This document shows, one piece after another, positions 33,388 through 51,194 of a stretch of DNA of 64,000 bases (position 1 is its first letter; each line of letters begins with the position of its first letter). Source of the DNA: Acidobacteriota bacterium (GTDB lineage: Bacteria > Acidobacteriota > Vicinamibacteria > Vicinamibacterales > UBA2999). A program made the translations under genes and the position numbers. The notes under the pieces are model-generated. The model did not search any database and was not told where the DNA came from. It worked only from the letters and a program-made list of their open reading frames with translations. Where the stretch lies: positions 62,001-126,000 of the forward strand of contig VFZN01000001.1 in NCBI GenBank assembly GCA_016871195.1, written 5' to 3'.

Positions 33388-34605
<1,218 letters not shown>

Positions 34606-34622
34606 GCCGCATCGGGTTCGGG

Positions 34623-34628
34623 TACGAT
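34623..34628 (+). promoter_or_regulatory. -10-like TACGAT before the FKBP start
   Basis: TACGAT ends six bases before ATG 34635, in the short space after the sucB stop. It suggests an own, leaderless promoter for the isomerase gene; no Shine-Dalgarno sequence is visible. Confidence 0.3.
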
Positions 34629-34634
34629 AACGCC

Positions 34635-35447
34635 ATGAGACTGATCGCCACTGCGCTGCTGGCGCTGACCACCGTCGGCGTCTCGGCGCAGGCACCCATG
34701 AGTCAGGTGCCGGCTCCGCCCGATCTGGCACGGCCCCCGGCCGATGCGCAGAAGACCGCGTCGGGTCTCAGCTACAAGGTGCTGCAACCCGGCCAGGGGA
34801 CAGCCACGGCTGCCGAAGACGACTATGTGACGGTGCAGTTCACCATCTGGACCGCCGATGGCCGCACCTACGACAGTTCGATTTCGCGCGGCATGACCGG
34901 CACCTATGCACTGCCGAAGACCATCAAGGGCTGGAACGAGGGTGTGCGGATGATGACGGTCGGCGAGAAGCGCCGCCTGTGGATTCCGAAAAATCTGGCC
35001 TACGACGGCATGGCGGGCCGGCCGCAGGGCGCGGTCGTGTCTGATGTCGAGCTGATTGAAATTATCAGGCCCCCTGACAAGCAGGCCCCGGCCGACGTGG
35101 CTGCGCCGCCGAGCGATGCCGAGCGCACGGCCTCGGGCCTGGCCTACAAGTACATCCGTCGCGGTGATCCGAACGGCCCGAAGCCCACGCGCGAGAACCG
35201 CGTGACCGTGCATTACACAGGCTGGACGACCGACGGCAGTGTGTTTGACAGCTCGCTGCCGCGTGGCCAGCGTTCCACCTTCGGCCTCGGCGACGTTATC
35301 GAGGGCTGGACTGAAGGCATGCAGCTGATGGTGCCCGGCGACAAGATGCGGTTCTGGATTCCCGAGCGGCTCGCCTACAAAGGCGAAGCCAACGGACCAC
35401 GGGGCATGCTCGTGTTCGAGGTCGAGCTGCTCGCCGTCACGCCCTGA
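34635..35447 (+). CDS. Exported double-domain FKBP-type peptidyl-prolyl isomerase
   Basis: A 270-residue protein with a signal peptide (MRLIATALLALTTVGVSAQAP) and two tandem FKBP domains (about residues 40-135 and 155-268), each introduced by a TASGL(S/A)YK strand. The second has the better active site (VHYTGWTTDGSVFDSS, IEGWTEGMQLM, FWIPERLAY); the first has VQFTIWTADGRTYDSS in place of the usual Tyr, so may be weaker. It should help fold proteins in the periplasm. I start at ATG 34635 because the signal peptide begins there. Confidence 0.9.
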   Translation: MRLIATALLALTTVGVSAQAPMSQVPAPPDLARPPADAQKTASGLSYKVLQPGQGTATAAEDDYVTVQFTIWTADGRTYDSSISRGMTGTYALPKTIKGWNEGVRMMTVGEKRRLWIPKNLAYDGMAGRPQGAVVSDVELIEIIRPPDKQAPADVAAPPSDAERTASGLAYKYIRRGDPNGPKPTRENRVTVHYTGWTTDGSVFDSSLPRGQRSTFGLGDVIEGWTEGMQLMVPGDKMRFWIPERLAYKGEANGPRGMLVFEVELLAVTP

Positions 35448-35467
35448 CCGACTTCGGCCTCCTCCGG

Positions 35468-35484
35468 CACGGGGATTACCCGTG
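35468..35484. terminator. Small hairpin between convergent genes
   Basis: CACGGG, loop GATTA, CCCGTG: a perfect 6-base-pair stem at the junction of the FKBP gene and the aldehyde dehydrogenase gene, overlapping the latter's stop codon. No T-run; weak candidate. Confidence 0.3.
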
Positions 35485-36909
35485 ATGGATCGCCACCGTC
35501 TTGAGTGTCGTGAAGCCCAGCAGGGCTTCGAGTCCTTTCTCCCGTCCGTAGCCGCTCGATTTCACGCCCCCGAAGGGCAGTTCCACCCCGCCGGCGGCGC
35601 CGTAGTTGTTGATGAACACCTGCCCGCTGTGCAGACGGCGGGCCATGCGGAACTGCCGGCCGCCGTCGCGCGTCCAGACACCGGCCACCAGGCCGAAGCG
35701 CGTGCAGTTGGCAAGGGCCACGGCCTCAGCTTCCGTCGTGAACGACATCGCTGCCAGCACGGGACCGAACACTTCCTCCTGCGCCAGCCGATGCGTCGGG
35801 GGCACGTCGCGCAGCAGCACCGGTGCCTGATAGAACCCGCCCGCTGGCACATCGGGCTGTACCGTGCCGGTCGCCACCACCGTCACCCCGGCGTCGTCCG
35901 CCTCGGCCAGGAACGCACGCACACGGTCCCGCTGCGACTTGCGGATGAGGGGACCCACATCGAGGTCGAGTGCAGCCGGCCCCACACGCAGGGCCCGGAA
36001 CGCCTCGCCCACGCGGGCCAGCAGCGTTTCATAGATGGGCGCTTCGATCAGCAGGCGCGACCCGGCCGAGCAGGTCTGGCCGGCATTCTGCACGATGGCG
36101 TTGATGATGGCGGGCACCGCCGCGTCGAGGTCGGCATCGGCGAATACGATCTGCGGCCCCTTGCCACCGAGCTCCAGCGTCACCGGGCAGTGCCGCTCGG
36201 CAGCCACCTGCTGAATGATCGTCCCCACGGACGGGCTGCCCGTAAACGAAATGTGATCGATGCCCGGGTGGCGGGCCAGCGCATCGCCCACCTCATGCCC
36301 CAGCCCCGTGACGATGTTGAGGGCACCGGGGGGAAAGCCGACCTCTGCGGCCAGCTGCGTCACGCGAATCAGTGACAGGCAGGCGTCTTCGGATGGCTTG
36401 ACGACGCAGACGTTTCCGGCAGCGAGGGCCCCACCCACACTGCGACCGAAGATCTGCATCGGATAGTTCCACGGCACGATGTGTCCGGTCACGCCGTGCG
36501 GCTCGCGCCAGGTGAGCACGCTGTAGCCTTCCAGGAACGGAATGGTGTCGCCGTGCAGCTTGTCGCAGGCGCCGGCATAGAACTCGAAATAGCGTGCGAG
36601 GGCGGTGGCATCGGCACGGGCCTGCCGGGTGGGCTTGCCGCAGTCGCGCTGCTCGAGGGCGGCCAGTTCGTCGGCGTGGGCCGTGACGGCGGCCGACAGC
36701 TTCATCAGCAGCCGACCGCGCTCGGCGGCGGTGACATGGCTCCAGGGGCCGTCGAAGCAGGCGCGGGCCGCGCGGACGGCGGCATCGACATCTTCGGCTG
36801 CGCTGCGAGGGATGGTGTCAAACACCTCGCCGGTCGACGGATCGATGACCGACAGGGTGGCGCCCGAGAGCGCGGACTGTGACTGGTGATTGATGACGTT
36901 CAGCGCCAT
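35476..36909 (-). CDS. NAD(P)-dependent aldehyde dehydrogenase
   Basis: A 477-residue aldehyde dehydrogenase, closest in wording to betaine-aldehyde or gamma-aminobutyraldehyde dehydrogenases. ITGHIVPWNYPMQIF-type cofactor region, ISFTGSPSVG, catalytic Glu in VTLELGGKGPQ, catalytic Cys in NAGQTCSAGSRL, and the C-terminal LPFGGVKSSGYGREKGLEAL. I use ATG 36907-36909; an in-frame TTG at 36963 would add 18 residues. A 92-base piece of this gene (36686-36777, N-terminal coding part) is repeated at 39989-40080 beyond the TonB-dependent receptor. Confidence 0.92.
   Translation of the reverse strand: MALNVINHQSQSALSGATLSVIDPSTGEVFDTIPRSAAEDVDAAVRAARACFDGPWSHVTAAERGRLLMKLSAAVTAHADELAALEQRDCGKPTRQARADATALARYFEFYAGACDKLHGDTIPFLEGYSVLTWREPHGVTGHIVPWNYPMQIFGRSVGGALAAGNVCVVKPSEDACLSLIRVTQLAAEVGFPPGALNIVTGLGHEVGDALARHPGIDHISFTGSPSVGTIIQQVAAERHCPVTLELGGKGPQIVFADADLDAAVPAIINAIVQNAGQTCSAGSRLLIEAPIYETLLARVGEAFRALRVGPAALDLDVGPLIRKSQRDRVRAFLAEADDAGVTVVATGTVQPDVPAGGFYQAPVLLRDVPPTHRLAQEEVFGPVLAAMSFTTEAEAVALANCTRFGLVAGVWTRDGGRQFRMARRLHSGQVFINNYGAAGGVELPFGGVKSSGYGREKGLEALLGFTTLKTVAIHHG
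36686..36777 (+). repeat. Direct repeat, left copy (inside the aldehyde dehydrogenase gene)
   Basis: 92 bases identical at 91 positions to 39989-40080 (offset 3,303); the only difference is A at 36710 against C at 40013. Identity stops sharply at both ends. This copy is within the intact dehydrogenase coding sequence and is therefore the source. Confidence 0.95.
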
Positions 36910-37046
36910 GGCGTTATTCTGCGCCAGCTCCCGCGGCATCTGAACCTTGACAGCGTACGACAAAAGGCGTTAGGTTGCCGCGAACTCGCTCCCGCACCAC
37001 CACGGACTTCCGCGACTCGGGCTGCCCTGCCAGCCAGGAGGATTTG

Positions 37047-39983
37047 ATGTCGAACGGTCTGCGCGCGACGCTTCTCGCCCTGATTGTCGTGGGCTCACCG
37101 GTGGCTGCTGGCGCCCAGAGCGCCATTGTCGGGGTGGTTCGAGACTCGTCAGGGGGCGTCTTGCCCGGGGTGACGGTCGAGGCGACCAGCGACGCGCTCA
37201 TCGAGCGGACCCGAGCGGCTGTCACCGACGAGCAAGGGACCTACCGCATTGTCGACCTCAGGCCCGGAACCTATGTCGTCACGTTCAGCCTGCCCGGCTT
37301 CAACAGCTTCCGGCGCGACGATCTGCTGCTGGCCTCCGAGTTCACCGCCACGGTCAACGCGGACCTCAAGGTTGGCGCTCTCGAGGAAACGATCACCGTC
37401 ACAGGGGCGGCGCCCGTTGTCGACGTGACGACGGCTGCGCGCGCGCAGGTGCTCGACCGCGAGGCCATCGATTCGATTCCCACCGGGCGCAGCATTCAGG
37501 GCATGGCGCAGCTCGTGCCGGGTGTCAGCCTGAATCTGCCCGACACTGGCGGAGCCCGCGCCATGCAGCAAACCTACATGTCTGTGCGAGGCATGTCGAC
37601 GTCGAACACCACTATGCTGGTCGACGGGATGCTCGTCAATGGCCTGCAGTCTGATGGTGCCGTCCAGAGCTATTTCAACGACGCCATGAATTCAGAGGTC
37701 AGCATCCAGGTCAGCGGCATCTCGGCAGATACCTCTGCCGGGGGCGTCCGCATGAACATGATCCCCCGCGAGGGTGGCAACCGCTTCAGCGGTGACCTGA
37801 AGGCCTCGTATCGACCGGGAAACTGGCAGTCGAGCAATCTGACCGACCGCCACGTGGCCCGCGGGCTCCGGGCCGGTAATGCCATCGACCGGATTCTTGA
37901 CAGCACCCTCTCGCTCGGCGGCCCCATCCGGAAGGATCGGTTGTGGTTCTTCACGTCCGGCCGGTATTTCACGGTCAACAACTACATTGCCAACACGTTC
38001 TTCAATGACGGCAGTCGCGGCCTGGATGACCAGTACATCGGCAGCGCCATGGCACGGCTGACGTGGCAGATTTCAAGCCGGAGCAAGCTGTCTGCGTACT
38101 TCGACGAGATTGACAAGTACCGGGGCCACGACATGCAGAGCAACGACGATCCTGAAGAGGCGTCGCTGCAGTGGTTCTCGCCCGCGTATCACACAGGGGC
38201 CATCAAGTACACATCGACGCTGACGAACGCGATGCTTCTGGAGGCGGGCTACTCCCGGAATCTCGAGTACTACACCAACAGCTATCAGGACGGCGTCGAG
38301 CAACCTCGCGGCACAGCAGCCTGGTTCGCCGGTGCGTCGCGTCTCGAAAGTGACCTTGGCGGTCGTCGAACCGCAGCGACGGCGCAGAACACGCAAAGCC
38401 CCGAACGCCATGCAATGCAGGCGTCGCTCTCGTACCTGTGGCGCTCGCACAGCTTCAAGGCGGGTGCGCAGCTGACCTGGGGTGATTTCTGGCACACCGT
38501 CGATGCCAATGCGGACCTGACGCAGCAGTACCGCAGTAACGCCACTGGCATCCGATTCTCGGTGCCCGACAGCGTCATCATCCGGAACACCCCACTTCGC
38601 TATGGCGAGCGCCTGAATCGAGACCTTGGCTTCTACGTCCAGGACTCGTGGCGGCTGAAGCGCCTGACCGTCAACGCCGGCATCCGATGGGAGCAGATCA
38701 AGGCGCAGGTGCTGGCCTCCGAGTCGCCAGCCGGCCGATTCGTTCCCGCGAGAAGCTTCTCTGCCATCGAGAACTTGCCGAACTGGACTGATTGGGCGCC
38801 CCGCTTCTCTGCCATTCTCGACGTGTTTGGTAACGGTCGAACGGCTGTCAAGTACTCGCTGAACCGCTACAACCAGATCCGGACGACCGGCATCGCAGGG
38901 AACTACAACCCGCTGCTGTCGCAAACCGCCACGCTGCCCTGGCGTGATGCCAACGGCAATGATATTGCGGAAGGAGAGCGCGGCTGCACGGGATACCCCA
39001 GGGTGGGATGTGAAATTGATTTCACGGCGCTCTCCCCCAATTTTGGAATCGCCGCCCTCAATGAATACGGCCGCTATCCACGCACATGGAATTTTGAAAA
39101 CGCCGTGGAAGTGCAGCATGAGCTCCTCCCGGGATTCTCGCTATCCGGTGCTGTGTATCGCGGCGAGTTCCGCAATCTGACGACCACCATCAACCAGAAC
39201 TGGACTCTCGCCGACTACACGCCCTTCACCTTCTACAATCCGGCCCGCGGTCAGCCGTTCGAGGTGTTCGCGCGCAGTGTCGCCGCGCAGGCGCGCCCCG
39301 CACGCTTCCTCGATACGTACGACCCCCAGCGGCGCCGTCAGTACCAGGCCCTGATGACCAATCTCACGTGGCGCATCCCTGGCGGAGGGCAGGTGTTCGG
39401 CGGCTACACCATGGAGCGCGAGCGCCAGCGTGCATGCACCGCGCCCGATGATCCGAACTACGCAGCCGCAGGATCCAGGACGACCTTTACCACCAAAGCC
39501 TTCTGCGACGATTTCGTGCTGGATATCCCCTGGAAGCACCAGTTCAAGCTGTCAGGCACGCGCCAGATCGGGTGGGGATTTGACCTGAGCATGGCGTTTC
39601 AGAGCAACCAGAGCCCCAATAGTTCACGCCTGATGAATGTGACGCGCGGGGTCACACGGTATCCGGCGACATGCCCGGCCCCGTGTCCCGCCAATCAAAT
39701 CATCATGCCGACGGGTACCTTCGGCCAGGGTTCGCTCGTGGTCTATCTCGAGCCAGAGCGAGCGACGTTCGTTGAACGCATCGTTCAGCTCGACTTGAAA
39801 CTGCAGCGCCGTTTCACGATTGGGCGCGTCTCGTTGCTGCCGGTGATTGAGGTCTTCAACGTGAACAACTCCGACGCCATCATCAGCTTCGTCACGACCA
39901 ACGCCCTGAGCAATTCCTATCTCGTACCGAACAGCATCATGCAGGGCCGTATCCTGGGTGTTGGTCTGACAACACGCTGGTAG
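37047..39983 (+). CDS. TonB-dependent receptor with N-terminal carboxypeptidase-regulatory-like domain (Oar-like)
   Basis: A 978-residue outer-membrane receptor. The signal peptide (LRATLLALIVVGSPVAAGAQ) leads to a carboxypeptidase-regulatory domain (IVGVVRDSSGGVLPGVTVEATS to YVVTFSLPGF, residues about 25-105). A plug (ITVTGAAPVVDVTT, about 115-250) and a large beta-barrel follow, ending in an aromatic-terminated strand (GVGLTTRW). It imports large substrates such as oligosaccharides or peptides with TonB energy. AGGAGGA lies five bases before ATG 37047. Codon use has more A/T than its neighbours, and the gene is bracketed by a 92-base direct repeat, which suggests it was inserted. Confidence 0.92.
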   Translation: MSNGLRATLLALIVVGSPVAAGAQSAIVGVVRDSSGGVLPGVTVEATSDALIERTRAAVTDEQGTYRIVDLRPGTYVVTFSLPGFNSFRRDDLLLASEFTATVNADLKVGALEETITVTGAAPVVDVTTAARAQVLDREAIDSIPTGRSIQGMAQLVPGVSLNLPDTGGARAMQQTYMSVRGMSTSNTTMLVDGMLVNGLQSDGAVQSYFNDAMNSEVSIQVSGISADTSAGGVRMNMIPREGGNRFSGDLKASYRPGNWQSSNLTDRHVARGLRAGNAIDRILDSTLSLGGPIRKDRLWFFTSGRYFTVNNYIANTFFNDGSRGLDDQYIGSAMARLTWQISSRSKLSAYFDEIDKYRGHDMQSNDDPEEASLQWFSPAYHTGAIKYTSTLTNAMLLEAGYSRNLEYYTNSYQDGVEQPRGTAAWFAGASRLESDLGGRRTAATAQNTQSPERHAMQASLSYLWRSHSFKAGAQLTWGDFWHTVDANADLTQQYRSNATGIRFSVPDSVIIRNTPLRYGERLNRDLGFYVQDSWRLKRLTVNAGIRWEQIKAQVLASESPAGRFVPARSFSAIENLPNWTDWAPRFSAILDVFGNGRTAVKYSLNRYNQIRTTGIAGNYNPLLSQTATLPWRDANGNDIAEGERGCTGYPRVGCEIDFTALSPNFGIAALNEYGRYPRTWNFENAVEVQHELLPGFSLSGAVYRGEFRNLTTTINQNWTLADYTPFTFYNPARGQPFEVFARSVAAQARPARFLDTYDPQRRRQYQALMTNLTWRIPGGGQVFGGYTMERERQRACTAPDDPNYAAAGSRTTFTTKAFCDDFVLDIPWKHQFKLSGTRQIGWGFDLSMAFQSNQSPNSSRLMNVTRGVTRYPATCPAPCPANQIIMPTGTFGQGSLVVYLEPERATFVERIVQLDLKLQRRFTIGRVSLLPVIEVFNVNNSDAIISFVTTNALSNSYLVPNSIMQGRILGVGLTTRW

Positions 39984-39988
39984 ACCTC

Positions 39989-40080
39989 ACGGCGGCCGAC
40001 AGCTTCATCAGCCGCCGACCGCGCTCGGCGGCGGTGACATGGCTCCAGGGGCCGTCGAAGCAGGCGCGGGCCGCGCGGAC
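39989..40080 (+). repeat. Direct repeat, right copy (dehydrogenase gene fragment after the receptor)
   Basis: Copy of 36686-36777 with one mismatch. It begins six bases after the receptor's TAG and ends 15 bases before the stop codon of the convergent hydrolase gene. Here the sequence has no coding role, so it is a relic of duplication or recombination. Confidence 0.95.
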
Positions 40081-40095
40081 AGATGAGCGTGCGCC

Positions 40096-41385
40096 TCACT
40101 TCTGCGCAAGGAACGCGACGAGCTGTTCGACGACGCGGGCGGGTTGCTCCTGCTGCACCCAGTGGCCGGCACCGTCAATCAGGTGCGTGCCCGCATAGCG
40201 CGTCGTGTGCGTCGACTCGAGGCGCTCGAGGGCACCGGGGCTCTGATACACGCCCCAGTCCTGGCGGCCCCCGATGAACATCGACGGCACGTCAATCTTC
40301 CGACCCGCGAACACGCGCAGCGCGGCATCACCACCACCTGAGCGATAGCCGTTGAGCCCGCCCTGAAATCCGGTGCGCTGATACTCGGCGGTATAGACGG
40401 CGAGGTCGGCATCACGCAGCCACCGGCACGCCGCCACCTGCTGCGGTGTCGGCATCTCGGGTGCCACTGACTCCGCCATGCCGACGGCGAGATCCATCAC
40501 GTAATAGCGGGGCAGCCGGGCCCACTCGGCCGCCGTGCGCCCGGCGAGCGGCTGCGGCTGGTTCGGTGCCCAGTCGGCGCTCTTCATGTGGTAATACGCA
40601 CGCAGAAATGCGTGCAGTCCCTGCGGCGGATGCCACAGGTTCTCATTGGCCTCGCGCGACTGGTAATAGCGCTGATAGTGCTTGCGCGGCGGCGACAGAC
40701 GGGCCAGGTCGTCGTAGATGGTGTCGGGCGCCGGACGCGGAGGCGGGGGCGCACCATTGGCCGTATTGAACGGCAGCGTCGCGGTGCCGCCGAAGGGCGC
40801 ACTCATCATCACCACCGAGCGGAACAGATCGGGCCGGATGACCGCACACCACCCTGCCTGCGGTGATCCCTGATCGTGGCCGATCACGGCATGCACGGAC
40901 CGATGCCCGAGGGCATACACCAGCGCCACCATGTCGTGCACCTGGTTGAACGTGCCGAACGGCCCCAGGTCATCGTCGTAGTTCGTGAGGGTGGTCACCG
41001 ACCGTCCATAGCCTCGGCGATCGGGCGCGACGACGTAGTAGCCGGCGTCGGCGAGGGGCCCCATCACCTGACGCCAGCTGTAGGCCAGTTCGGGGAATCC
41101 GTGCAGCAGCAGGAGCATCGGTCGATTGGGGGTCTCAAAGCCTGCTTCGAGCACATGCACACGGAGGCCATTCACCCCGTCAACAAACCGCGAGCGGATG
41201 CCGCGGGGCAACACACGGGCGTCGTAGGGCGCGAGGGCACCTGATGCCGGCGCCTGCGCGCCCGTGGCAAACAGCGGAACCTGTGCGGGTCGCAGGGCTG
41301 CGGCGGCGACCATACCCAGCCAGAGGCTGACGAGGTCGCGACGAGACACGAGGGAGGGGGGCGTGAGAGGGGAAGACGGACGCAT
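40096..41385 (-). CDS. Exported alpha/beta hydrolase, epoxide-hydrolase-like
   Basis: A 429-residue alpha/beta-hydrolase. The N-terminus has a Tat-like signal (SRRDLVSLWLGMVAAAA). LLLLHGFPELAYSWR carries the oxyanion HGFP, APDRRGYGRS follows, VIGHDQGSPQAGW contains the nucleophile Asp (so epoxide hydrolase or dehalogenase type rather than esterase), and the late GGRQDWG and LIDGAGHWVQQEQP supply acid and His. It would open epoxides or related substrates in the periplasm. ATG 41383-41385 is preceded by GGAGG at good distance. Substrate unknown. Confidence 0.88.
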   Translation of the reverse strand: MRPSSPLTPPSLVSRRDLVSLWLGMVAAAALRPAQVPLFATGAQAPASGALAPYDARVLPRGIRSRFVDGVNGLRVHVLEAGFETPNRPMLLLLHGFPELAYSWRQVMGPLADAGYYVVAPDRRGYGRSVTTLTNYDDDLGPFGTFNQVHDMVALVYALGHRSVHAVIGHDQGSPQAGWCAVIRPDLFRSVVMMSAPFGGTATLPFNTANGAPPPPRPAPDTIYDDLARLSPPRKHYQRYYQSREANENLWHPPQGLHAFLRAYYHMKSADWAPNQPQPLAGRTAAEWARLPRYYVMDLAVGMAESVAPEMPTPQQVAACRWLRDADLAVYTAEYQRTGFQGGLNGYRSGGGDAALRVFAGRKIDVPSMFIGGRQDWGVYQSPGALERLESTHTTRYAGTHLIDGAGHWVQQEQPARVVEQLVAFLAQK

Positions 41386-41517
41386 GGGAAACCTCCGCAG
41401 GATCCGGTGCAGGCATCGCTCCCGCAGGTGCGGGAACCCGGGCACGCTGGCGGTGACCGGTCCCTCGACGGGCGAAGCACGCCCTCAGGCACAGGCGACC
41501 AGCGACCCGTGCCGGCA

Positions 41518-41549
41518 GGCGGGACCGGACGACTCGGCCCCGTCCCGCC
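41518..41549. terminator. Inverted repeat upstream of the hydrolase gene
   Basis: GGCGGGAC (41518-41525), 16-base loop, GTCCCGCC (41542-41549) in the 172-base space between two minus-strand genes, just after the HD-like gene's stop. Could end its transcript; no T-run, so uncertain. Confidence 0.35.
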
Positions 41550-41557
41550 GGACACGA

Positions 41558-42385
41558 CTAGAGGGGGTTGTCGGGAAACATCATCGTGCGCCACATGTGG
41601 GCGACGGCACTGTTGTCGTTCCCGAGGCCTTCCTTGGGCTGCTTGAACTGGCGCCCGATGATGTCGATGAACGGGTCGAGCGACACCTCGACGCTGGGAT
41701 CGAAGGCATACAGATCATTCACCGTGATCATGCGTGCCTCGAAGTACCACTTGTGCTTGCGGGCGTACTCATACGCCTTCTTGATGTGCTCCTGCGGCAC
41801 GTAGTCCTTGCCGTAGATGCGGTTGTAGAGTTCGGGGTACTCGTAGCCGTGCGCCGGATCCGGATAGAACCGCAGGGCCTGGTGATAGCGGATGGCCCAG
41901 CTGATCTTCTCGGACACGTAGGGCTCGAGCATCTGGGCGCCCCACCAGGCGTGGTCCACCTTGACGAGGTTCTGCACCACATCGTGCAGCAGGCACGCCA
42001 TGACGATCTCCTCGCTCATACCGGTCTTGAGTGCCCGGTTTGCACTCTGCAGCACGTGCCGGGCGGGGGAAAACCGCTTCTCGAAGAACTCTTCGAGTGT
42101 CGGCTTGGCCGACATCGGCGCGAGCGTGGGCATCCGCTGGTTCCCCGGGGGCCCGATCGGCGCGAACAAGCTGCCGACGCCGCGCCTGACCGTCGCATCG
42201 GCGGGTGAGGGCAGCAGTTGTTCCGCCTCGGGGAGGAGCCCTCCGGCCAGTTCGTCGAGCCGCTCGACCATGTAGTGTTCGAGCGCTTCGGCTTTCGTTT
42301 CCGAGTCCATCCGCTCGACGACGGCCAGGCCGCCGAGACTCGCGATAAACGCACGCCGGTCGATGTCCATGTTGCCGAATCCCAT
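41558..42385 (-). CDS. HD-domain-like protein with a Tat-like N-terminus
   Basis: A 275-residue protein. The N-terminus (DIDRRAFIASLGGLAVV) resembles a short Tat signal. Residues about 105-175 have an HD-type metal pattern: RHVLQSAN, MACLLHDVV, VDHAWWGAQML and IRYHQALRFYPD. The C-terminus is aromatic and charged without a known motif. It may be a metal-dependent hydrolase or an oxygenase of the HD superfamily; I cannot name a family. It is probably transcribed from the shared 110-base divergent region with the PhzF gene. Confidence 0.6.
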   Translation of the reverse strand: MGFGNMDIDRRAFIASLGGLAVVERMDSETKAEALEHYMVERLDELAGGLLPEAEQLLPSPADATVRRGVGSLFAPIGPPGNQRMPTLAPMSAKPTLEEFFEKRFSPARHVLQSANRALKTGMSEEIVMACLLHDVVQNLVKVDHAWWGAQMLEPYVSEKISWAIRYHQALRFYPDPAHGYEYPELYNRIYGKDYVPQEHIKKAYEYARKHKWYFEARMITVNDLYAFDPSVEVSLDPFIDIIGRQFKQPKEGLGNDNSAVAHMWRTMMFPDNPL

Positions 42386-42495
42386 GCGTGAACCTCCAGG
42401 CGCGCATCCTAGCAGACCCTGTGCGGGAGGGCTACGGGAAATGCCGTGCCCTCCAATCCCGTAGAATCGGACGAGTCCTCAGCCCGGCCAGCCCT

Positions 42496-43335
42496 ATGCC
42501 AACCACCCGCCGCTTCCACCAACTTGATGTATTCACCGCGACGCCGCTCCTCGGGAATCCCCTGGCGGTGGTGCACGACGCGCACGACATCGACGAGGCC
42601 ACCATGGCGGCCTTCGCCCGATGGACCAACCTCTCGGAAACCACGTTTCTGCTGCCGCCCACGGACCCTCGGGCCGATTACCGTGTGCGCATCTTCACGC
42701 CCGGGGGCGAACTGCCGTTTGCCGGGCATCCCACGCTCGGCAGCTGCGCGGCGTGGCTCGATGCCGGCGGGATGCCCAGGGATGCGAACGAGGTGACCCA
42801 GGAGTGCGGTGTGGGCCTGGTTCGCGTCCGTCGCGACGGCTCGCGGCTGGCGTTTGCCGCGCCTCCCCTCCGGCGCACCGGTCCACTCGATGCCTCTCTC
42901 GTCGAACGCATCAGCCGGGGACTCGGCATCGACGCTGCGCAGGTGCGGCATCACCAGTGGGTCGACAACGGCCCGGGCTGGTGCGCCGTGATGCTGCCCT
43001 CAGCCGAAGTGGTGCGGCAGCTGCGTCCCGACATCGCGCAGCTGGAAGGACTGATGCTGGGCGTCGCGGGTGCGTGTGCGCCCGGTGACGACGCGGCCTT
43101 CGAGGTGCGGGTGTTTGTGCCGGGTCACGGCGTGGCCGAAGACCCGGTGACCGGCAGCCTCAACGCCGGCCTCGCGCAGTGGCTGATTGGGGCGGGACTG
43201 GCGCCAGCGCAGTATGTGGCGGCGCAGGGCGCGGCCCTGGGTCGTGCCGGCCGCATTCACGTCGCGCACGACGGCGTCGATGTGTGGATTGGCGGTGATG
43301 TGGTGGTCTGTATCCGAGGGGATGTCACACTCTGA
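42496..43335 (+). CDS. PhzF-family isomerase/epimerase-like protein
   Basis: A 279-residue PhzF/diaminopimelate-epimerase-fold protein: QLDVFTATPLLGNPLAVVHDA at the N-terminus, catalytic Glu in NLSETTFLLPP, FTPGGELPFAGHPTLGSCAAWL, and the second-half AEDPVTGSLNAGLAQWL. Members isomerise small molecules (for example in phenazine synthesis), but most have unknown substrates. ATG 42496 was chosen because the family begins at TRRFHQLDVF; TAGAAT (42462-42467) may be its -10. Confidence 0.9.
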   Translation: MPTTRRFHQLDVFTATPLLGNPLAVVHDAHDIDEATMAAFARWTNLSETTFLLPPTDPRADYRVRIFTPGGELPFAGHPTLGSCAAWLDAGGMPRDANEVTQECGVGLVRVRRDGSRLAFAAPPLRRTGPLDASLVERISRGLGIDAAQVRHHQWVDNGPGWCAVMLPSAEVVRQLRPDIAQLEGLMLGVAGACAPGDDAAFEVRVFVPGHGVAEDPVTGSLNAGLAQWLIGAGLAPAQYVAAQGAALGRAGRIHVAHDGVDVWIGGDVVVCIRGDVTL

Positions 43336-43577
43336 GCGAGGCGTGCCGGCCGCGTCCGTGCCGGCGACAAGAGTCTATGACGCGAATATCGCGACGTGGT
43401 CTCTCGCTGGCGCCTGCCAGGCCGGCTCAGCGTTCTACGCGCGGCTCCTGCACACGGAATTCCTACCGCGTCTGTTTCTTCTTGCGTGTCGCGGTGATTG
43501 GGTTGGGCCAATCGATGCTGGGTGTGACTGCCACGGCGCTCCAGCTGTCACCGCGCGGCCACCGGTGATGGGGGGTG

Positions 43578-44927
43578 TCAGCCCCTGGCGCCGGCGCTCA
43601 TCTTCGCACCGACACGCAGTGCGAGCTCGAGGGCCTGGCGATAGTTGAGGCGGGGATCGCAGACCGACAGATACCGCCGATCGAGATCGGCTTCGCTCAA
43701 TCCGCCACCGATGCACTCGGTCACATCCTCGCCGGTCAGTTCAAAGTGCACACCTCCGAGGACAGTGCCGAGCGCGGCATGCACGTCGAAGGTGCGCTCG
43801 AGCTCGGCGAGGATGTCGTCGAAGCTCCGCGTCTTGAGCCCCGTGACGGTGGTCATGCCGTTGCCGTGCATCGGGTCACACACCCACAGCACGCGGCGTC
43901 CGGCACGGCGCACGGCCTCGACCAGGGGCGGCAGCCGACGTTCGACCTCGGCGGCCCCCATGCGCGTGATGGCCACCAGCTTGCCCGGTTCATTTTTCGG
44001 GCTCAGCACTTCCAACAGCCGCACCGCGTCATCAGGAGCGACGCGCGGCCCGAGCTTGACGCCCACGACGTTCTCGATACCCCGGAAGAACTCGACGTGC
44101 GCGCCGTCGATTTCCCGGGTGCGCTCGCCAATCCACGGCATGTGCGTCGTGAGCAGATAGTGACCGCTGCGCCGGGGTACGGTGCGGGTCTGGGCCGACT
44201 CGTAGTGCAGGTTGAGCCCTTCGTGACTCGTATAGAACGTGACGCGCGTCAGTTCCTCGACCGCGCGCTCACCGATGGCTTCCATGAAGTGCAGCGCCGC
44301 GGCGAGCCGCTCGGTGGTTTCGCGGTACTGCGCGCGCAGGGCATCGGGAAGGTCAGCCCGCGACATGAAGCCGAGGTCCCAGTACTCGGGATGATGCATG
44401 TCGGCAAACCCGCCGATGGCGAGCGAGCGCACGAAGTTGAGCGTCATGGCCGCGTGGCCATATGCATCGAGCAGCGCCCGCGGATCGGCACGTCGGGCCG
44501 CAGGCGTAAAGTCGGACTGATTGATCAGATCACCGAAGTAGCTAGGCAGGGTCATGCCGTCGCGGGTTTCGGTGGGGTTCGATCGGGGCTTGGCGTACTG
44601 CCCGGCCAACCGTCCCACGCGAATGACAGGCCGCTTCGACGCATGGATCAGCACGAGCGACATCTGCAGCAGGATTTTCAGCTTGTTGGCGATGATCGCC
44701 GGCTGGCAGTCGGCGAGGGTTTCCGCGCAGTCACCGCCCTGCAGCAGGAAGCGCTTGCCCTCCTGCGCTTCGGCCACCAGCTCCTTGAGGCGCTCGACTT
44801 CCCATGAGGTGACCAGCGGTGGCAGCCCGCGCAGCTTGCCGACGACCGCGCGCAGCGCCTCGGGATCGTCGTAGCCGACGTCCTGAGCGTACGGTTTCCC
44901 GGTCCAGGAGTCGACGCGCCAGATCAC
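43578..44927 (-). CDS. Class II 3-deoxy-7-phosphoheptulonate (DAHP) synthase
   Basis: A 449-residue plant-type (class II) DAHP synthase, first step of the shikimate pathway, condensing phosphoenolpyruvate and erythrose 4-phosphate. Signatures are LLQGGDCAET, RVGRLAGQYAKPRS, HWIGERT-like MPWIGERTREIDGAHVEFFRG, KLGPRV, and WVCDPMHGNGM with a metal-binding His. Typical length. The start is GTG 44925-44927, seven bases after TACGAT. Shikimate genes are otherwise absent from the window. Confidence 0.93.
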   Translation of the reverse strand: MIWRVDSWTGKPYAQDVGYDDPEALRAVVGKLRGLPPLVTSWEVERLKELVAEAQEGKRFLLQGGDCAETLADCQPAIIANKLKILLQMSLVLIHASKRPVIRVGRLAGQYAKPRSNPTETRDGMTLPSYFGDLINQSDFTPAARRADPRALLDAYGHAAMTLNFVRSLAIGGFADMHHPEYWDLGFMSRADLPDALRAQYRETTERLAAALHFMEAIGERAVEELTRVTFYTSHEGLNLHYESAQTRTVPRRSGHYLLTTHMPWIGERTREIDGAHVEFFRGIENVVGVKLGPRVAPDDAVRLLEVLSPKNEPGKLVAITRMGAAEVERRLPPLVEAVRRAGRRVLWVCDPMHGNGMTTVTGLKTRSFDDILAELERTFDVHAALGTVLGGVHFELTGEDVTECIGGGLSEADLDRRYLSVCDPRLNYRQALELALRVGAKMSAGARG

Positions 44928-44934
44928 GCCCGCG

Positions 44935-44940
44935 ATCGTA
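44935..44940 (-). promoter_or_regulatory. -10-like TACGAT before the DAHP synthase start
   Basis: On the minus strand TACGAT ends seven bases before the GTG start of the DAHP synthase, with no ribosome-binding site between them, consistent with a leaderless message. Confidence 0.35.
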
Positions 44941-45106
44941 GCATGGCGATTCGCAAGGCCTCGCCACGATCGGATCGCAGCGGCCGGGCTCGACCCGTGA
45001 CTACGACGTCGCCAACCGGGCAGGACGCTGGCACCTGCCCGGAGCTGGCGGCCCGCATCTCCGCAGGCGCAGGCCGCCTGCTCTCGGCAGCACCCGTGGC
45101 TGCGGC

Positions 45107-46123
45107 CTACTGCTTCGGGGCCGTCGTCGACCGGGGACCGGGGGTCGGCACGTGGGCAAATGCAATCCCGGTCAGCATGCCCATGCGGGTACCCAGCGTG
45201 CGTCGACCCTTTCCGTCGAGCCTGGCAGACACCACGTTGCCACCCAGGTCGGTCACATAGAGACGGTTGCCCGGGACATCCAGCGCCACACCGATGGCTT
45301 CATCGAGACCGCCGAGCAGAATCTGGATGTCGGTACGGTGCCTGGGATCGGCCCCGGCAGGCCGCTGCATCGGCGCACGGTTGACGGTGTTTCCACGAGG
45401 CGCATCGCCACGGTCCGTCCAGTAGATCATCCGGGCCGTCAGGTCGAGGTCGAGGTCGATGGGCTCTGGCAGGGCATCAAAGAGCACTTCAATGTCGGTG
45501 CGCGTGCCGGCCGTCTGTCCCTGGGGCATGTCCATCCTGGCTCGGCGGATGCTGCCACGGAATGCATTGTCGCCCCCCTTCTGCGTCCAGTACACCATGC
45601 CAGCGTCAGGATCGACCGCAATGCCCACGCACCAGTTGGCGGCGTCAAGCCGATCCTGTGCGCCCTTCCCCGTGACGACCAGGGTTTCCACCTGCGACCC
45701 GTCCAGGTTCGCACGCTGGATGCGCATGCCTTCGCGATCGGCCCAGTACATCTTCCCGTGCTTCTCATCGATCTTCATCTGCTTGGCGGTGAATGTGCCG
45801 CCTGCCGGCACCAGCGTCGTCACCGTCCCTCCCTCGAGGGACGTTCGCATGACCGAGCCGTCGTCTTCACTCGCCCTGCCCATATTGGACCAGTAGATGT
45901 GCCCGTGGGCCACGTCGACGGCAATCCCGTCGGGGCTCTCCGTGCGCTTGTCCACGAGTATGCGGACATCGCTGCCATCGGGCGTCATCGACAGGACACG
46001 CCCCCCGCGAATATCCAGGAAGAACAGCCGCGGGGTCGTCGCAGCGGCCAGCAGCGAGAGGGTGAGCCCGCTTGCCATCAGCGCTGCGACCGCACCCAGA
46101 AGACCTGCGGCTCGACGTGTCAT
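45107..46123 (-). CDS. Secreted YWTD/LDL-receptor-type beta-propeller protein
   Basis: A 338-residue exported protein: signal peptide (LLGAVAALMASGLTLSLLAAA) and a six-bladed propeller with YWTD-type repeats (HIYWSNMG, KMYWADREG, MVYWTQKG, MIYWTDRG, RLYVTDLGG), each followed by a stretch such as IAVDVAHG or IAVDPDAG. Such propellers bind proteins or ligands at the cell surface. GGAGGAGG precedes ATG 46121-46123. Partner unknown; divergent from the amidohydrolase gene across 197 bases, which hold TAGACT-like elements on both strands. Confidence 0.87.
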   Translation of the reverse strand: MTRRAAGLLGAVAALMASGLTLSLLAAATTPRLFFLDIRGGRVLSMTPDGSDVRILVDKRTESPDGIAVDVAHGHIYWSNMGRASEDDGSVMRTSLEGGTVTTLVPAGGTFTAKQMKIDEKHGKMYWADREGMRIQRANLDGSQVETLVVTGKGAQDRLDAANWCVGIAVDPDAGMVYWTQKGGDNAFRGSIRRARMDMPQGQTAGTRTDIEVLFDALPEPIDLDLDLTARMIYWTDRGDAPRGNTVNRAPMQRPAGADPRHRTDIQILLGGLDEAIGVALDVPGNRLYVTDLGGNVVSARLDGKGRRTLGTRMGMLTGIAFAHVPTPGPRSTTAPKQ

Positions 46124-46320
46124 GTCCGGCACCCTCCTCCGGCAGCGGACATGACCAACGTTCATGCGACGCCGCCCGGCGGAAGTCTACAGCATTCCGG
46201 CGTGTGCACTCGCGGATCCGCAGGAATCGTCCGCACACCGGGGATCAATCGACCGGATTCTCCGGTAGACTCAGGCCGCCCGTGGCAGGCGACCTGCCGC
46301 ATTCCCAAAAGGAGCCTGTG

Positions 46321-47670
46321 ATGTTCTGCCGCCGTGCCGGTGCGATTGCTGCGGTGCTCGTCGCGTTCATTGCCGCGCTGCGTGCGCAGCCGACCGTCAT
46401 CGCCTTCGACGGCGGCCGGCTGATCATCGGCGACGCGTCGGCCCCCATTGAACGCGGCACGCTGCTTGTCGAAGGCGGGCGCATCACGACTATTGGTGAA
46501 AGCGGACGTGTCGCCATTCCCGCAGGGGCCACCCGTCTCGACATGCGCGGCCGCACACTCATGCCGGCCCTGATCAACGCGCACGTGCACATCGGCTACG
46601 AGGGCTTCGGCAGCTGGGGTGCCGACAACTACTCCGAACGCACCGTGCTTGATCACCTGCGACGACAGGCGTTCTACGGCGTGGCGGCCACACAGACGGT
46701 GGGCAGCAGCCCGATCGCCGAATCACTCGCGTTTGCGAAGGCGCAGCAGGCCGGGCAGTTTCCTCCGGCGTCCCGTTTTCTGGCGGTGCCGGGCATGGCG
46801 CCCCCAGGTGGCGGACCTGATGCGATCCTGCTCAGGGGCACCCGCGTGCTGAAGGCCGTGACCGAGATCTCGACCGCCGACGAGGCGCGTGCCGCGGTGC
46901 AGCGCATGGCGGCGGCACACATCGGCCACGTCAAGATCTGGGTCGATGATCGGCGCGGCACGTATCCCAAGATGCCACCCGAGGTCTACGAGGCGGTCAT
47001 CGCCGAAGCACATCGGCTGGGCATGACGGTGCATGCGCATGCCATCCAGATGGCTGACCAGAAGGCGGTCGTCAGGGCAGGCGCAGATGTGCTGGTGCAC
47101 ACCGCCCTCGGTGAACCACTTGACGAGGAACTGATGGCCCTGCTCCGCGAACAGCGTCCCTACTGGACGACGGTGGTGGGGCTGAGTGATCGGAGCGAAG
47201 CCTGCAACCGGGATCCGTTCGTAGACCAGAGCTATCCCGCACATGTGCTCGACGAGATCAGGAACAAGGACTGCGCCCCTCCCTCACCGGCAGCCCTGAA
47301 TCGCGATCGGCTGTGGGCCATCAACTTTCCGAAGTACATCAGCAGCGGCGCGCGGCTCGTGCTGGGCACCGATGCCGGCATCGATGCCCGACATGCGTTC
47401 GGGTGGGCCGACCATCACGAGCTGTCACGCTGGGCACAGGCCGGTCTGACGCCCGCTGAGGCCATCATCGCCGCCACGTCGCGTCCGGCGGCACTGCTGG
47501 GCCTCGCCGATCTCGGCACGCTGGCGCCGGGCAAGCGTGCCGATCTGCTGGTGCTCGGCGCCAATCCGCTCGACGCGATCAACAACACCCGCCGCATCGA
47601 AGACGTCTACCTGAACGGCGTCGCGCTCGACCGTGCGGCGATGCTGCGCGAGTTCAAGCGCGAGCGCTAA
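46321..47670 (+). CDS. Secreted amidohydrolase-family protein
   Basis: A 449-residue metal-dependent hydrolase with a signal peptide (GAIAAVLVAFIAALRAQ). INAHVHIGY gives the HxH, VKIWVDD the position of the bridging Lys, TVHAHAIQ a metal His, and LGTDAGID the catalytic Asp; the C-terminal GTLAPGKRADLLVLGANPL closes the composite beta-sandwich. It resembles imidazolonepropionase/prolidase-like exported amidohydrolases. AAGGAG lies just before ATG 46321. Substrate unknown. Confidence 0.9.
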   Translation: MFCRRAGAIAAVLVAFIAALRAQPTVIAFDGGRLIIGDASAPIERGTLLVEGGRITTIGESGRVAIPAGATRLDMRGRTLMPALINAHVHIGYEGFGSWGADNYSERTVLDHLRRQAFYGVAATQTVGSSPIAESLAFAKAQQAGQFPPASRFLAVPGMAPPGGGPDAILLRGTRVLKAVTEISTADEARAAVQRMAAAHIGHVKIWVDDRRGTYPKMPPEVYEAVIAEAHRLGMTVHAHAIQMADQKAVVRAGADVLVHTALGEPLDEELMALLREQRPYWTTVVGLSDRSEACNRDPFVDQSYPAHVLDEIRNKDCAPPSPAALNRDRLWAINFPKYISSGARLVLGTDAGIDARHAFGWADHHELSRWAQAGLTPAEAIIAATSRPAALLGLADLGTLAPGKRADLLVLGANPLDAINNTRRIEDVYLNGVALDRAAMLREFKRER

Positions 47671-47731
47671 TCGCGCCCGGTGAGCCGGTTTTCAGCCGAC
47701 CTGCGCACTCTCCTCATGAAGGAGACTGCTG

Positions 47732-48124
47732 ATGACCCGACACGCTGTGAACGTCGCAACCGTTCTGCTGCTCTGCTCCGTAACGACCGCGTCGGCCCAG
47801 GTGGCCGTGGTGTCGCCCGACGCCGCTGCCCCCGGTGCCACGGCGCTGACACTGGCAGCCATCCCGCTGGTTGCACCGGTGCCGGTGATTGACGCGCGAC
47901 CGCTCGCCCTCGACGCATCGCACCCACCCGCCGCCCTCGCACAGCCTGCCACGCAGCAGCGCCCGACGCTTCGGTCAGGGGGAGAGCGACTGGCCGTGGG
48001 CATGCTCGCCGGGACTGGCGGCGCTGCGTTAGGTCTTCTGGTTGGCTCCATCGGAGGACCTCTCGGCGCATTGATCTGCATCCCGCTGCTGGCCGCCACA
48101 TCCGCAGCCGCAGCCATGAACTGA
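47732..48124 (+). CDS. Small exported hypothetical protein with a glycine-zipper helix
   Basis: A 130-residue protein with a signal peptide (VNVATVLLLCSVTTASAQ), an Ala/Pro-rich middle and a C-terminal glycine-rich hydrophobic segment (AVGMLAGTGGAALGLLVGSIGGPLGALICIPLLAA), which looks like a glycine-zipper membrane helix or hairpin. GAAGGAG is located upstream of ATG 47732. No family recognised; probably membrane- or envelope-associated. Confidence 0.65.
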   Translation: MTRHAVNVATVLLLCSVTTASAQVAVVSPDAAAPGATALTLAAIPLVAPVPVIDARPLALDASHPPAALAQPATQQRPTLRSGGERLAVGMLAGTGGAALGLLVGSIGGPLGALICIPLLAATSAAAAMN

Positions 48125-48284
48125 GCCCGCACGGCTGCACGCGTCACCGTCGTGAGTGGGGCGTGATGTACTCGCCGCGGGCGAGTTGTGCGAGGCATGG
48201 CCACGCGAACGCACTGCGCGTGACGAGCCGCCGCCTGGAAACCCGTGAGGTGCCAGCGCGTCCGGTCGAGCGGCGATGGCCGCG

Positions 48285-49829
48285 CTACGAAGGCCCCTCC
48301 GTGGGACGCACCGTGAACGACGGGGCCGGTGGGGGCAGAGGACACCGTGGCCTCGGGTCACTCACGCCGGGAACGCGCAGGGTGGGACCGTCGGGTTTCG
48401 ACGGGTCGAACAGCAGGGCGGTACCCTCGACGTGCGGGGCCCGATACGCCAGCACCGGTGCCAGCGTCAGCTGCCCCAACGGACTATGCGCACCGAATCG
48501 TTCACGGAACACGGGCAGTTCCGAGTCTTCCAGCAACAGGAACACGGGGCGCTGCTGTTCGTGCAGCCAGGCCACCGTCCGATCGAGCCAGGCGGGGTCG
48601 AGCTGATCGAACCGCAGGGACAGGCGCCCGCCGTAGTAGCGCACCGCACCGACATACGGCCCGGCAATTACGACGCTGCCGGGACGTGTGACGCCAGCGA
48701 CCAACTGCGCGAGCGTGGCATAGCGACGTTCGCCTTCCCCGGCCGGAAACACACCCAGGCGCACCGCCGCAGATGCCGTGTACACGCCGATCAGGCCCAC
48801 GCACAGCGCGGTCACCAGGTGACCCTGGCGCACGACAGACGTGACCGAGAAGACCGCGATGACGGTGGCCACCAGGATGGCTGGCCAGGCCGGCAGCAGG
48901 AAGTGCAGGAACCACCAGGCATCAAACGGGGTATAGGCCGCATACGCCGCAATCACTGCCAGAGTCATTCCACCCTGGAGCAGCGCACCTGATGGGCCTG
49001 TTGCGCCTGACCTCCACACCCGGCGCACAGGCACGCACAGCGCGGCGAGACCTGCCAGCACCAGCGGCGTCTGCGTCTCGATCATCCATGCGCCGTAACG
49101 ACGAAGGTTCACTGGAAGATGCGCCCGCGAGAACAGCTGACCGAGATCGCCGTAGCCAGATTCGACAGGCGAGCCGTTCACCGACTGATTGACGAGGGCC
49201 ACGGCGACAACGCCCACGGCCGCCGGTGCCGCACACAGCACCAGCCGCTGCACCGCCGGCCGGCGTGCCCTGAGGTCGCGCCAGAGTCCCCAGGCCAGCA
49301 GCACGACCACAAGAGGTCCTAGGTTGGGCCGGATCGTGATTGCCACGCCCGCGGCGACGCCGGCACCGGCCACAGTCCGTGGCGTACCCGCCAGCATTCC
49401 CGCCATGGCTGCAGCCCAGGCCGCCGCCGCCGGCACGTCGCTCATCACCGACTTTCCCATGCTGAGCACCGTCGGGCTCGTGGCCACCAGCCATGCGGCT
49501 CCGAGACCGATGCCCGGTGTCGACACACGCCTGCCGATGACAAATGTGCACCAGACCAGCACGCCTGTTGCGAGCGGTGCCACGATGAATGCCGCCCAGT
49601 GTCCGAGCAGCCCCTTCATGCCGGCCATGATCCACGGCAGCCCCGGCGCGGTGATTGAGGCGATGGCCATCAGGTCGTGACGGGGACGCATGCCGAGCGG
49701 CGTCAACGTGACGAGGGCCAGGTATACCGGTCCCCACCTGAGCACAAAGCCATCAGTCAGCGCGATCGCAAGGGCATACACGCCGCACAGCACGGCGAGC
49801 GCGGCGAGGACGGTTCTGGTGGTGAGCAT
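48285..49829 (-). CDS. GT-C-type membrane glycosyltransferase-like protein (GT39/ArnT-like)
   Basis: A 514-residue polytopic protein with about 10-11 membrane segments (MLTTRTVLAALAVLCGVYALAIAL first) and a soluble C-terminal region of ~120 residues containing VVIAGPYVGAVRYYGGR. The layout fits GT-C glycosyltransferases that transfer sugars from polyprenyl phosphates in the periplasm. The catalytic Asp in the first loop is probably in ALTDGFVLRWG. I begin at ATG 49827-49829 because the hydrophobic core starts there; the frame upstream to 50000 is low-complexity. Donor and acceptor unknown. Confidence 0.68.
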   Translation of the reverse strand: MLTTRTVLAALAVLCGVYALAIALTDGFVLRWGPVYLALVTLTPLGMRPRHDLMAIASITAPGLPWIMAGMKGLLGHWAAFIVAPLATGVLVWCTFVIGRRVSTPGIGLGAAWLVATSPTVLSMGKSVMSDVPAAAAWAAAMAGMLAGTPRTVAGAGVAAGVAITIRPNLGPLVVVLLAWGLWRDLRARRPAVQRLVLCAAPAAVGVVAVALVNQSVNGSPVESGYGDLGQLFSRAHLPVNLRRYGAWMIETQTPLVLAGLAALCVPVRRVWRSGATGPSGALLQGGMTLAVIAAYAAYTPFDAWWFLHFLLPAWPAILVATVIAVFSVTSVVRQGHLVTALCVGLIGVYTASAAVRLGVFPAGEGERRYATLAQLVAGVTRPGSVVIAGPYVGAVRYYGGRLSLRFDQLDPAWLDRTVAWLHEQQRPVFLLLEDSELPVFRERFGAHSPLGQLTLAPVLAYRAPHVEGTALLFDPSKPDGPTLRVPGVSDPRPRCPLPPPAPSFTVRPTEGPS

Positions 49830-50231
49830 GCCCGCCGCGATTCCGTCACGGGACCCGGTCCGCAGCTGCCAGCCGCTCACGAAACCTGCGGCCACACGCA
49901 CGTCGGAAGGCGCCCGCACGCGCGTCACACCGACCACCGGAGACGGCGACCACACCGCGCCACACCAGATACCTCCCGAGGGCGCCGCACCGCTCGGCAC
50001 AGATCGGACGCATGAGTTCAGGGCGCTCTATGCCCCTCGTCCGCATGGCACCGACGCACAGGTCTCTTCCCGTGCGTCGCATGCAGCACCCGCCATGCCC
50101 GTCCGCGCCGTACAATCGTCATCATCGCCGCCCTGCTGATTCCCCATCGCCGCCGCCGACGTGTCGCTGACACGCGCGAGTCGACTGCACCCGCCTGGCG
50201 CACGATCGCATTCGATCGCGGGGACACCGGT
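49830..50231. other. 402-base divergent intergenic region
   Basis: Between the divergent GT-C-like gene and the RluA-family gene. I see TACAAT at 50111-50116 (plus), a possible -10 for the pseudouridine synthase, but no tRNA, repeat or protein-like frame. The frame of the RluA gene remains open upstream to about 50112 without ATG, GTG or TTG. Confidence 0.4.
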
Positions 50232-51194
50232 GTGCGCGTCGATCTCGTGCTGCTGCGTCACCTGGGGCACGAACCGCAGATGTCACGCGCCCGCATCCAG
50301 CGCTGGATCGAGTCGGGCCGCGTCACCATTAACGGCCATCCGGTGCCACGCGTGGCCTGGCGCGTTGCAGCAGGCGATCGCCTCTGTGTCGACATGCACG
50401 ATGTGCGGAGGCGCGAGGTGCCCCGCGGTGAACCCGTGCCCCTTGACGTGATTTACGAGGACGCCCACCTGCTGGCCGTAAACAAACCCGCAGGGCTCGT
50501 GGTGCATCCGTCGTACAGGCACGACACCGGTACGCTGCTGAACGGCCTGCTGCACCGCGCGGCGCACTGGCCCTCGGGCGACAGCCCCGCCCTGCTGACG
50601 CGACTCGACAAGATGACCTCGGGATTGCTGCTGGTGGCGAAGCGCGCCGAAGTGGTGGCGGCGCTGCAGCGCGACATGCGCGCGCAGCGCATCGAGAAAG
50701 ACTATCTCGCCCTCGTGCACGGGCTGCCCTCACCGGCCCGCGGCACAATCACGCTCGCCCTCGATCGCGATCCGTGGGATCGCCGTCGCGTCACGGTGAC
50801 CGACCGCGGCGGGCAACCGGCCGTCACGCGCTACCAGCGTCTGGCCACCTCACCCGCAGCCGCAGACGACGATGCGGGCCGTGACACCCAGCGTGTGTCG
50901 CTGATGCAGTGCCGGCTGGTCACCGGGCGCATGCACCAGTTGCGCGTTCATCTCTCGCACAAGGGCTGGCCCATTGTCGGTGACCCGACGTATGGGCGTG
51001 CAGACACGCCGGGCCGGGGCCGCCAGGCGCTGCACGCCTGGCGCCTCTCGCTGATGCATCCGGTGACCCGTGAAGGGCTGACGCTCGAAGCCCCGCTACC
51101 TGACGACCTGCAGCGGCTGCTGGTCGAGCACCACATCGCGTGGCCGCCCGACCGGCACGCCGATCAGACCACGGTCAGGCCCGAGCCAGCCTGA
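50232..51194 (+). CDS. RluA-family 23S rRNA/tRNA pseudouridine synthase with S4 domain
   Basis: A 320-residue pseudouridine synthase. N-terminal S4 RNA-binding domain (SRARIQRWIESGRVTINGHPVPRVAWRV, about residues 17-60), then the RluA catalytic domain with YEDAHLLAVNKPAGLVVHPS, TRLDKMTSGLLLVAK (catalytic Asp), EKDYLALVHG and RMHQLRVHLSHKGWPIVGDPTYG. It isomerises uridines in rRNA. Start given at GTG 50232; the preceding in-frame codons (WRTIAFDRGDTG) look like the usual N-terminus of homologues but have no standard start codon, so the true start may be non-canonical. Confidence 0.88.
   Translation: MRVDLVLLRHLGHEPQMSRARIQRWIESGRVTINGHPVPRVAWRVAAGDRLCVDMHDVRRREVPRGEPVPLDVIYEDAHLLAVNKPAGLVVHPSYRHDTGTLLNGLLHRAAHWPSGDSPALLTRLDKMTSGLLLVAKRAEVVAALQRDMRAQRIEKDYLALVHGLPSPARGTITLALDRDPWDRRRVTVTDRGGQPAVTRYQRLATSPAAADDDAGRDTQRVSLMQCRLVTGRMHQLRVHLSHKGWPIVGDPTYGRADTPGRGRQALHAWRLSLMHPVTREGLTLEAPLPDDLQRLLVEHHIAWPPDRHADQTTVRPEPA

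Follow-up and report, generated by a model that had tools for sequence, protein, structure and literature searches.

Short-patch double illegitimate recombination has reportedly been described by Harms and co-workers in Acinetobacter baylyi, with joins formed by microhomology only. The locus analysed here resembles that system in that a segment of the same genome appears to have been pasted at a second site, with candidate microhomology at both joins; it differs in that the insert is of 92 bases and lies in the genome of a natural isolate, where the mechanism is inferred from sequence. Related work on illegitimate recombination is cited among the references of PMC8116780 and includes PMC3240628. 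In E. coli, the perfection of quasipalindromes is a known mark of template switching (PMC7202029). A single substitution likewise perfects an 8-bp inverted repeat at our locus, but this is one event with a short stem and could be due to chance (3 in 276, see below). Microhomology-mediated templated insertions have been described for eukaryotic rearrangements (PMC5120786, PMC12426944). These also copy nearby DNA into a rearrangement junction, but are made by eukaryotic pathways, and Ku was not found in the present genome. Bacterial tandem duplication and amplification of repeat-flanked genes is comparable in that the direct repeats surround a whole gene, giving an amplifiable unit of 3303 bp; a second unit, however, is not seen here.

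The bacterium is uncultured, and the locus offers what is probably a clean natural case of short ectopic duplication next to a gene that was acquired recently; the same genome holds a possible second case. Also documented here are a site of gene accumulation in the family, between an FKBP-type prolyl isomerase gene and a pseudouridine synthase gene, and the transfer of an aldehyde dehydrogenase (ALDH) gene from Comamonadaceae. These findings have little significance beyond the locus itself.

The two copies of a 92-base direct repeat

We analysed a window of 64 kb, by which we mean the whole stretch of DNA under study, from a genome of 3.08 Mb that is assembled in 51 contigs and is 98% complete. 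The window contains a 92-base direct repeat whose two copies lie in the same orientation at an offset of 3303 bases, are identical at 91 of the 92 positions and have sharp ends (Table 1). This confirms, at both coordinates, an observation made in an earlier note on this DNA. The sole difference between the copies is an A at 36710 in copy 1 and a C at 40013 in copy 2, with exact blocks of 24 and 67 bases on either side. Chance origin of the repeat is excluded; apart from these blocks, the longest exact repeat that the window contains has 22 bases. No long homology of the donor and acceptor flanks extends beyond the insert, the bases differing immediately outside both repeat ends.

The earlier note had also advised that the genome be searched for more copies at receptor genes. 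A search with the 92-mer returned two matches at E<0.01, these being the two copies themselves, and the third-best match covered about 33 bases at 85% identity. Self-comparison of 2.02 Mb of the 3.08-Mb genome yielded 13 repeat pairs of at least 40 bp, among them a tRNA, a short tandem array and contig-end repeats. The presence of two copies only, together with this small number of repeat pairs, indicates that the 92-mer belongs to no repeat family and is not the product of a systematic gap-fill artefact.

The polarity of the duplication can be read from the context of each copy. Copy 1 lies within an intact and conserved ALDH gene. Copy 2 is an isolated fragment without gene context. The gap that separates the stops of the receptor and the abhydrolase is 112 bases long, and copy 2 takes up 92 of them, beginning 5 bases past the former stop and ending 15 bases before the latter. 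Translated in the frame of the ALDH, the substitution in copy 2 is L85R. Residue 85 was examined across 85 homologues and found to be L in 60, V in 16, I in 5, M in 2 and A in 2, with R in none (0/85). Because copy 1 lies in a conserved gene and the Arg of copy 2 never occurs among the homologues, copy 2 is the derived copy, free of the constraint acting upon the ALDH. These data bear out the earlier suggestion that the repeat derives from the neighbouring gene. The insert thus has both a near-exact match elsewhere in the same genome and an intact donor, and the 91/92 identity indicates that the duplication is recent.

Table 1. Positions within the window of the repeat, its associated motifs and the surrounding genes
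Feature	Position	Strand	Remarks
Copy 1 (donor)	36686..36777	+	ALDH codons 63-93 (ALDH gene in minus orientation)
Copy 2 (displaced duplicate, 91/92 identical)	39989..40080	+	Intergenic gap between two convergent genes
GACGGCGGC, 9-bp direct repeat, left donor end	36685..36693	+	
GACGGCGGC, second copy, right donor end	36775..36783	+	90 bp further on
Perfect 8-bp hairpin GCCGCCGA-CCGCGC-TCGGCGGC in copy 2	40011..40032	+	Made by the C at 40013
Aldehyde dehydrogenase (ALDH; Aldedh)	35476..36963	-	Pfam E=2.5e-153; intact, 495 codons
TonB-dependent receptor	36975..39983 (ORF)	+	Carboxypeptidase-regulatory domain and plug
Alpha/beta hydrolase (abhydrolase)	40096..41445	-	Convergent with the receptor
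FKBP-type prolyl isomerase	34602..35447	+	Behind sucA-sucB; conserved left border of the 14.8-kb stretch
Pseudouridine synthase	50232..51194	+	Conserved right border of the 14.8-kb stretch
14.8-kb lineage-specific stretch	35448..50231	.	Between FKBP and pseudouridine synthase

The surrounding stretch and the origin of the ALDH gene

The ALDH and receptor genes diverge from a shared upstream gap, and the likely start of the receptor is the ATG at 37047, which stands behind an AGGAGG. Pfam analysis of the genes examined around the repeat revealed no transposase or integrase domain, consistent with the absence of a transposase noted earlier.

The organization of this region was compared with that in relatives. 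In many genomes of the family, sucB has FKBP as its neighbour. Two congeners carry the pseudouridine synthase gene about 140 bp past FKBP, as opposed to 14.8 kb away in the window. In other genera FKBP is followed by a second ALDH gene (ALDH2) and a MatE gene, the window counterparts of which are at 51362 and 53012. Since either the pseudouridine synthase or the ALDH2-MatE pair is directly next to FKBP in these relatives, the intervening 14.8 kb, the ALDH included, is extra and non-ancestral in this lineage. Its gene set consists of the ALDH, the receptor, the abhydrolase, an HD protein, PhzF, DAHP synthase, an LDL-receptor-repeat protein, an amidohydrolase and a mannosyltransferase-like protein. 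Base composition does not separate the stretch (0.666 versus 0.670 and 0.702). Different inserts, about 1.3–8 kb in size, occur around the same genes in four relatives (G004, G005, G024 and G010), indicating that this site tolerates insertions. As at a genomic island in a hotspot, extra genes are thus found between neighbours that adjoin in relatives, and the inserts differ in other relatives.

Counterparts of the receptor, the ALDH and the abhydrolase occur in relatives at unrelated places, with no neighbours in common. The receptor family is represented in a sister genus at 82% amino acid identity. In several relatives (four loci) the receptor counterpart is in tandem with a 45% identical paralogue; the window receptor stands alone. 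The HD-domain protein (41558-42385) has matches in 9 of 43 family genomes; it shares 86% identity with its counterpart in another genus (G024) but 79% with the one in a congener (G004), and was possibly also transferred.

The closest ALDH proteins that we found are 77–78% identical and come from Comamonadaceae, compared to about 64% identity within the same family, and matches below 1e-160 were confined to 2 of the 395 further genomes that were compared from across the phylum. In a quick tree, for which support was assessed by SH-aLRT only, the window ALDH falls within a 32-row clade containing Comamonadaceae and unclassified Betaproteobacteria (SH-aLRT 100) and is set apart from the family's own ALDHs. 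Given this nesting within the Comamonadaceae, the ALDH was acquired horizontally from a Comamonadaceae-like donor. Joint transfer of the ALDH with other window genes was considered and rejected, the best matches to other window proteins beside the Comamonadaceae ALDHs being only about 24–35% identical. As far as the donor-side neighbours show, no other window gene would have travelled with the ALDH.

Effect of recombination between the copies

According to the earlier note, the receptor is a self-contained 3.2-kb insertion that recombination between the repeats would excise cleanly, restoring the dehydrogenase gene. Two direct copies do flank the receptor, and an exact block of 67 bases is long enough to support RecA-dependent recombination. 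Recombination between copy 1 and copy 2 (36777 joined to 40081) would, however, remove 3303 bases, and with them ALDH codons 1–62, the gap from which the two genes diverge and the receptor. In the product, residue 63 is preceded at a distance of 6 codons by the in-frame stop of the abhydrolase, and the first in-frame start left is ALDH residue 87. Excision would therefore break an ALDH gene that is whole now and leave a start-less remnant, and this refutes the restoring part of the model. The portrayal of the receptor as a self-contained insertion also fails, because the whole stretch from FKBP to the pseudouridine synthase is non-ancestral with the ALDH included; the foreign gene is the ALDH, whereas the receptor belongs to a family that occurs in relatives. 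The earlier note had proposed that relatives be examined for the locus without the receptor, but an empty site, in which the ALDH and the same flanks are present without it, was not found in any genome searched. A mobile cassette or transposon was likewise rejected, there being no transposase or integrase domain in the surrounding genes examined, the ends being direct repeats and the 92-mer being present only twice.

We conclude that the receptor is not a mobile unit, nor is the repeat, and we regard insertion of the receptor by repeat-mediated recombination, with clean excision and restoration of the ALDH, as highly unlikely. What stands of the proposed repeat-mediated or duplicative insertion is that some duplicative event made copy 2; the receptor as the inserted element does not. 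The locus serves as a caution against inferring mobility whenever a gene is flanked by direct repeats, strand and frame showing in this case that excision would be destructive.

Formation of copy 2 and alternative explanations

Copy 2 is probably the scar of a single unprogrammed ectopic duplication of an ALDH fragment, formed via template switching or microhomology-mediated (short-patch illegitimate) recombination. The data show the repeat and its polarity, the intact donor, the foreign origin of the ALDH and the non-ancestral state of the 14.8 kb; the molecular route is inferred from them. The ALDH would first have been gained from its Comamonadaceae-like donor and would have become part of a 14.8-kb mosaic of guest genes. 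Later, about 90 bases of the ALDH, from a position 3.3 kb off, would have entered the gap between the receptor and the abhydrolase. In the likeliest route, a replication or repair strand would switch template at very short homology, copy the 90 bases of ALDH and switch back. The dinucleotide AC fits both joins and would suffice as the microhomology for such a switch, although two-base homology is weak. The ancestral acceptor would have been TAGACCTC-AC-AGATG, and the gap without the 92 bases would be expected to read TAGACCTCACAGATGAGCG. The receptor-abhydrolase junction, with or without the 92 bases, was found in none of 396 genomes spread over the phylum and 99 relatives. Alternatively, the same product could arise if illegitimate recombination captured a short DNA fragment; the genome contains ComEC and DprA, which permit, without showing, such capture by transformation. 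A search of the genome for Ku found none, which makes Ku-dependent end joining unlikely, and it was set aside as a candidate.

Template switching fits two features of the sequence, considered along with the E. coli quasipalindrome precedent (PMC7202029). A 9-bp direct repeat is found at both ends of the 92-bp donor segment, an arrangement that holds for 0.9% of positions in the ALDH gene and 0.2% in the window. In addition, the A to C substitution turns GCAGCCGA...TCGGCGGC into a perfect 8-bp inverted repeat; of 276 possible substitutions, 3 would give an equally good hairpin whose loop does not exceed 10. Both statistics were computed post hoc, with the data already seen. Copy 2 is ordinary in kind, a piece of mutational debris from a real and recent ectopic duplication of a gene fragment.

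The main rival is tandem duplication of the 3303-bp unit (36686-39988), which contains the 5' part of the ALDH and the whole receptor, followed either by deletion of all but 92 bases of the second unit or by collapse of the array in assembly, which would then display a single unit and the partial copy at its end. The join of 39988 to 36686 is exactly what such breakpoints would make, unequal exchange between copies would leave the leftmost ALDH intact, and perfect arrays collapse in short-read assemblies. A duplication with later deletion nevertheless requires two events where one suffices, and the end of the deletion would have to fall only 15 bases beyond the abhydrolase stop. For the array to have collapsed, all of its units would need to be nearly identical. 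We therefore consider this explanation unlikely, though it is the most credible of the alternatives. In a further reading the receptor is a 3303-bp amplicon, the genome carrying or switching among several receptor copies that were assembled as one, with the essentiality of the ALDH acting as a ratchet against losing the last copy. If so, unequal exchange would multiply the receptor and its upstream region while the leftmost ALDH stayed intact, and loss of the unit would break the ALDH; we judge this reading to be improbable.

The earlier note had raised an assembly join as an alternative, and an error of joining or gap filling at copy 2 is conceivable in a genome of 51 contigs, 92 bases being shorter than a typical read. 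The synteny on either side of copy 2 argues against it. The genes at its two borders, FKBP and the pseudouridine synthase, adjoin in congeners and have kept their order and orientation here, which places both sides of copy 2 in one neighbourhood, and the ALDH2-MatE pair that comes next after FKBP in other genera also follows here. A false join would thus have had to involve both ends of a single neighbourhood. In addition, copy 2 carries its own substitution, giving a residue unseen in functional ALDHs, and the 2.02-Mb self-comparison revealed only one other such duplicate at contig interiors. The probability of an artefact is accordingly small. Retention of copy 2 as a regulatory element is very improbable. 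Since the ALDH is on the minus strand and the receptor on the plus strand, copy 2 in the 3' tail of a run-through receptor mRNA would be complementary to ALDH codons 63–93, placing 92 bases antisense to the mRNA of a gene that diverges from the same upstream gap. Against this reading, there are two copies only, conservation in relatives is absent, no terminator-like or promoter-like site is present, and the predicted RNA fold is not unusual (z of -0.5 and 0.1). An RNA element was rejected on the ground that the fold is no better than that of shuffles and that a terminator-like site is lacking.

The other displaced duplicate in the genome is located at 255564-256171 of contig C2. It consists of pieces matching 266495-266780 (98%) and 267443-267772 (97%) of the same contig, so that two pieces from 11 kb away are fused, in the same orientation, at a 9-base overlap. 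This looks like the same kind of scar as copy 2, or a decayed duplication. It lacks 662 bases from inside its donor, which is what decay of a duplicate would leave, and this patchwork keeps duplication followed by deletion alive as a rival to ectopic copying at the ALDH locus. The C2 duplicate is intergenic and precedes a probable TonB-dependent receptor gene (256554-259481) with the same type of N-terminal domain.
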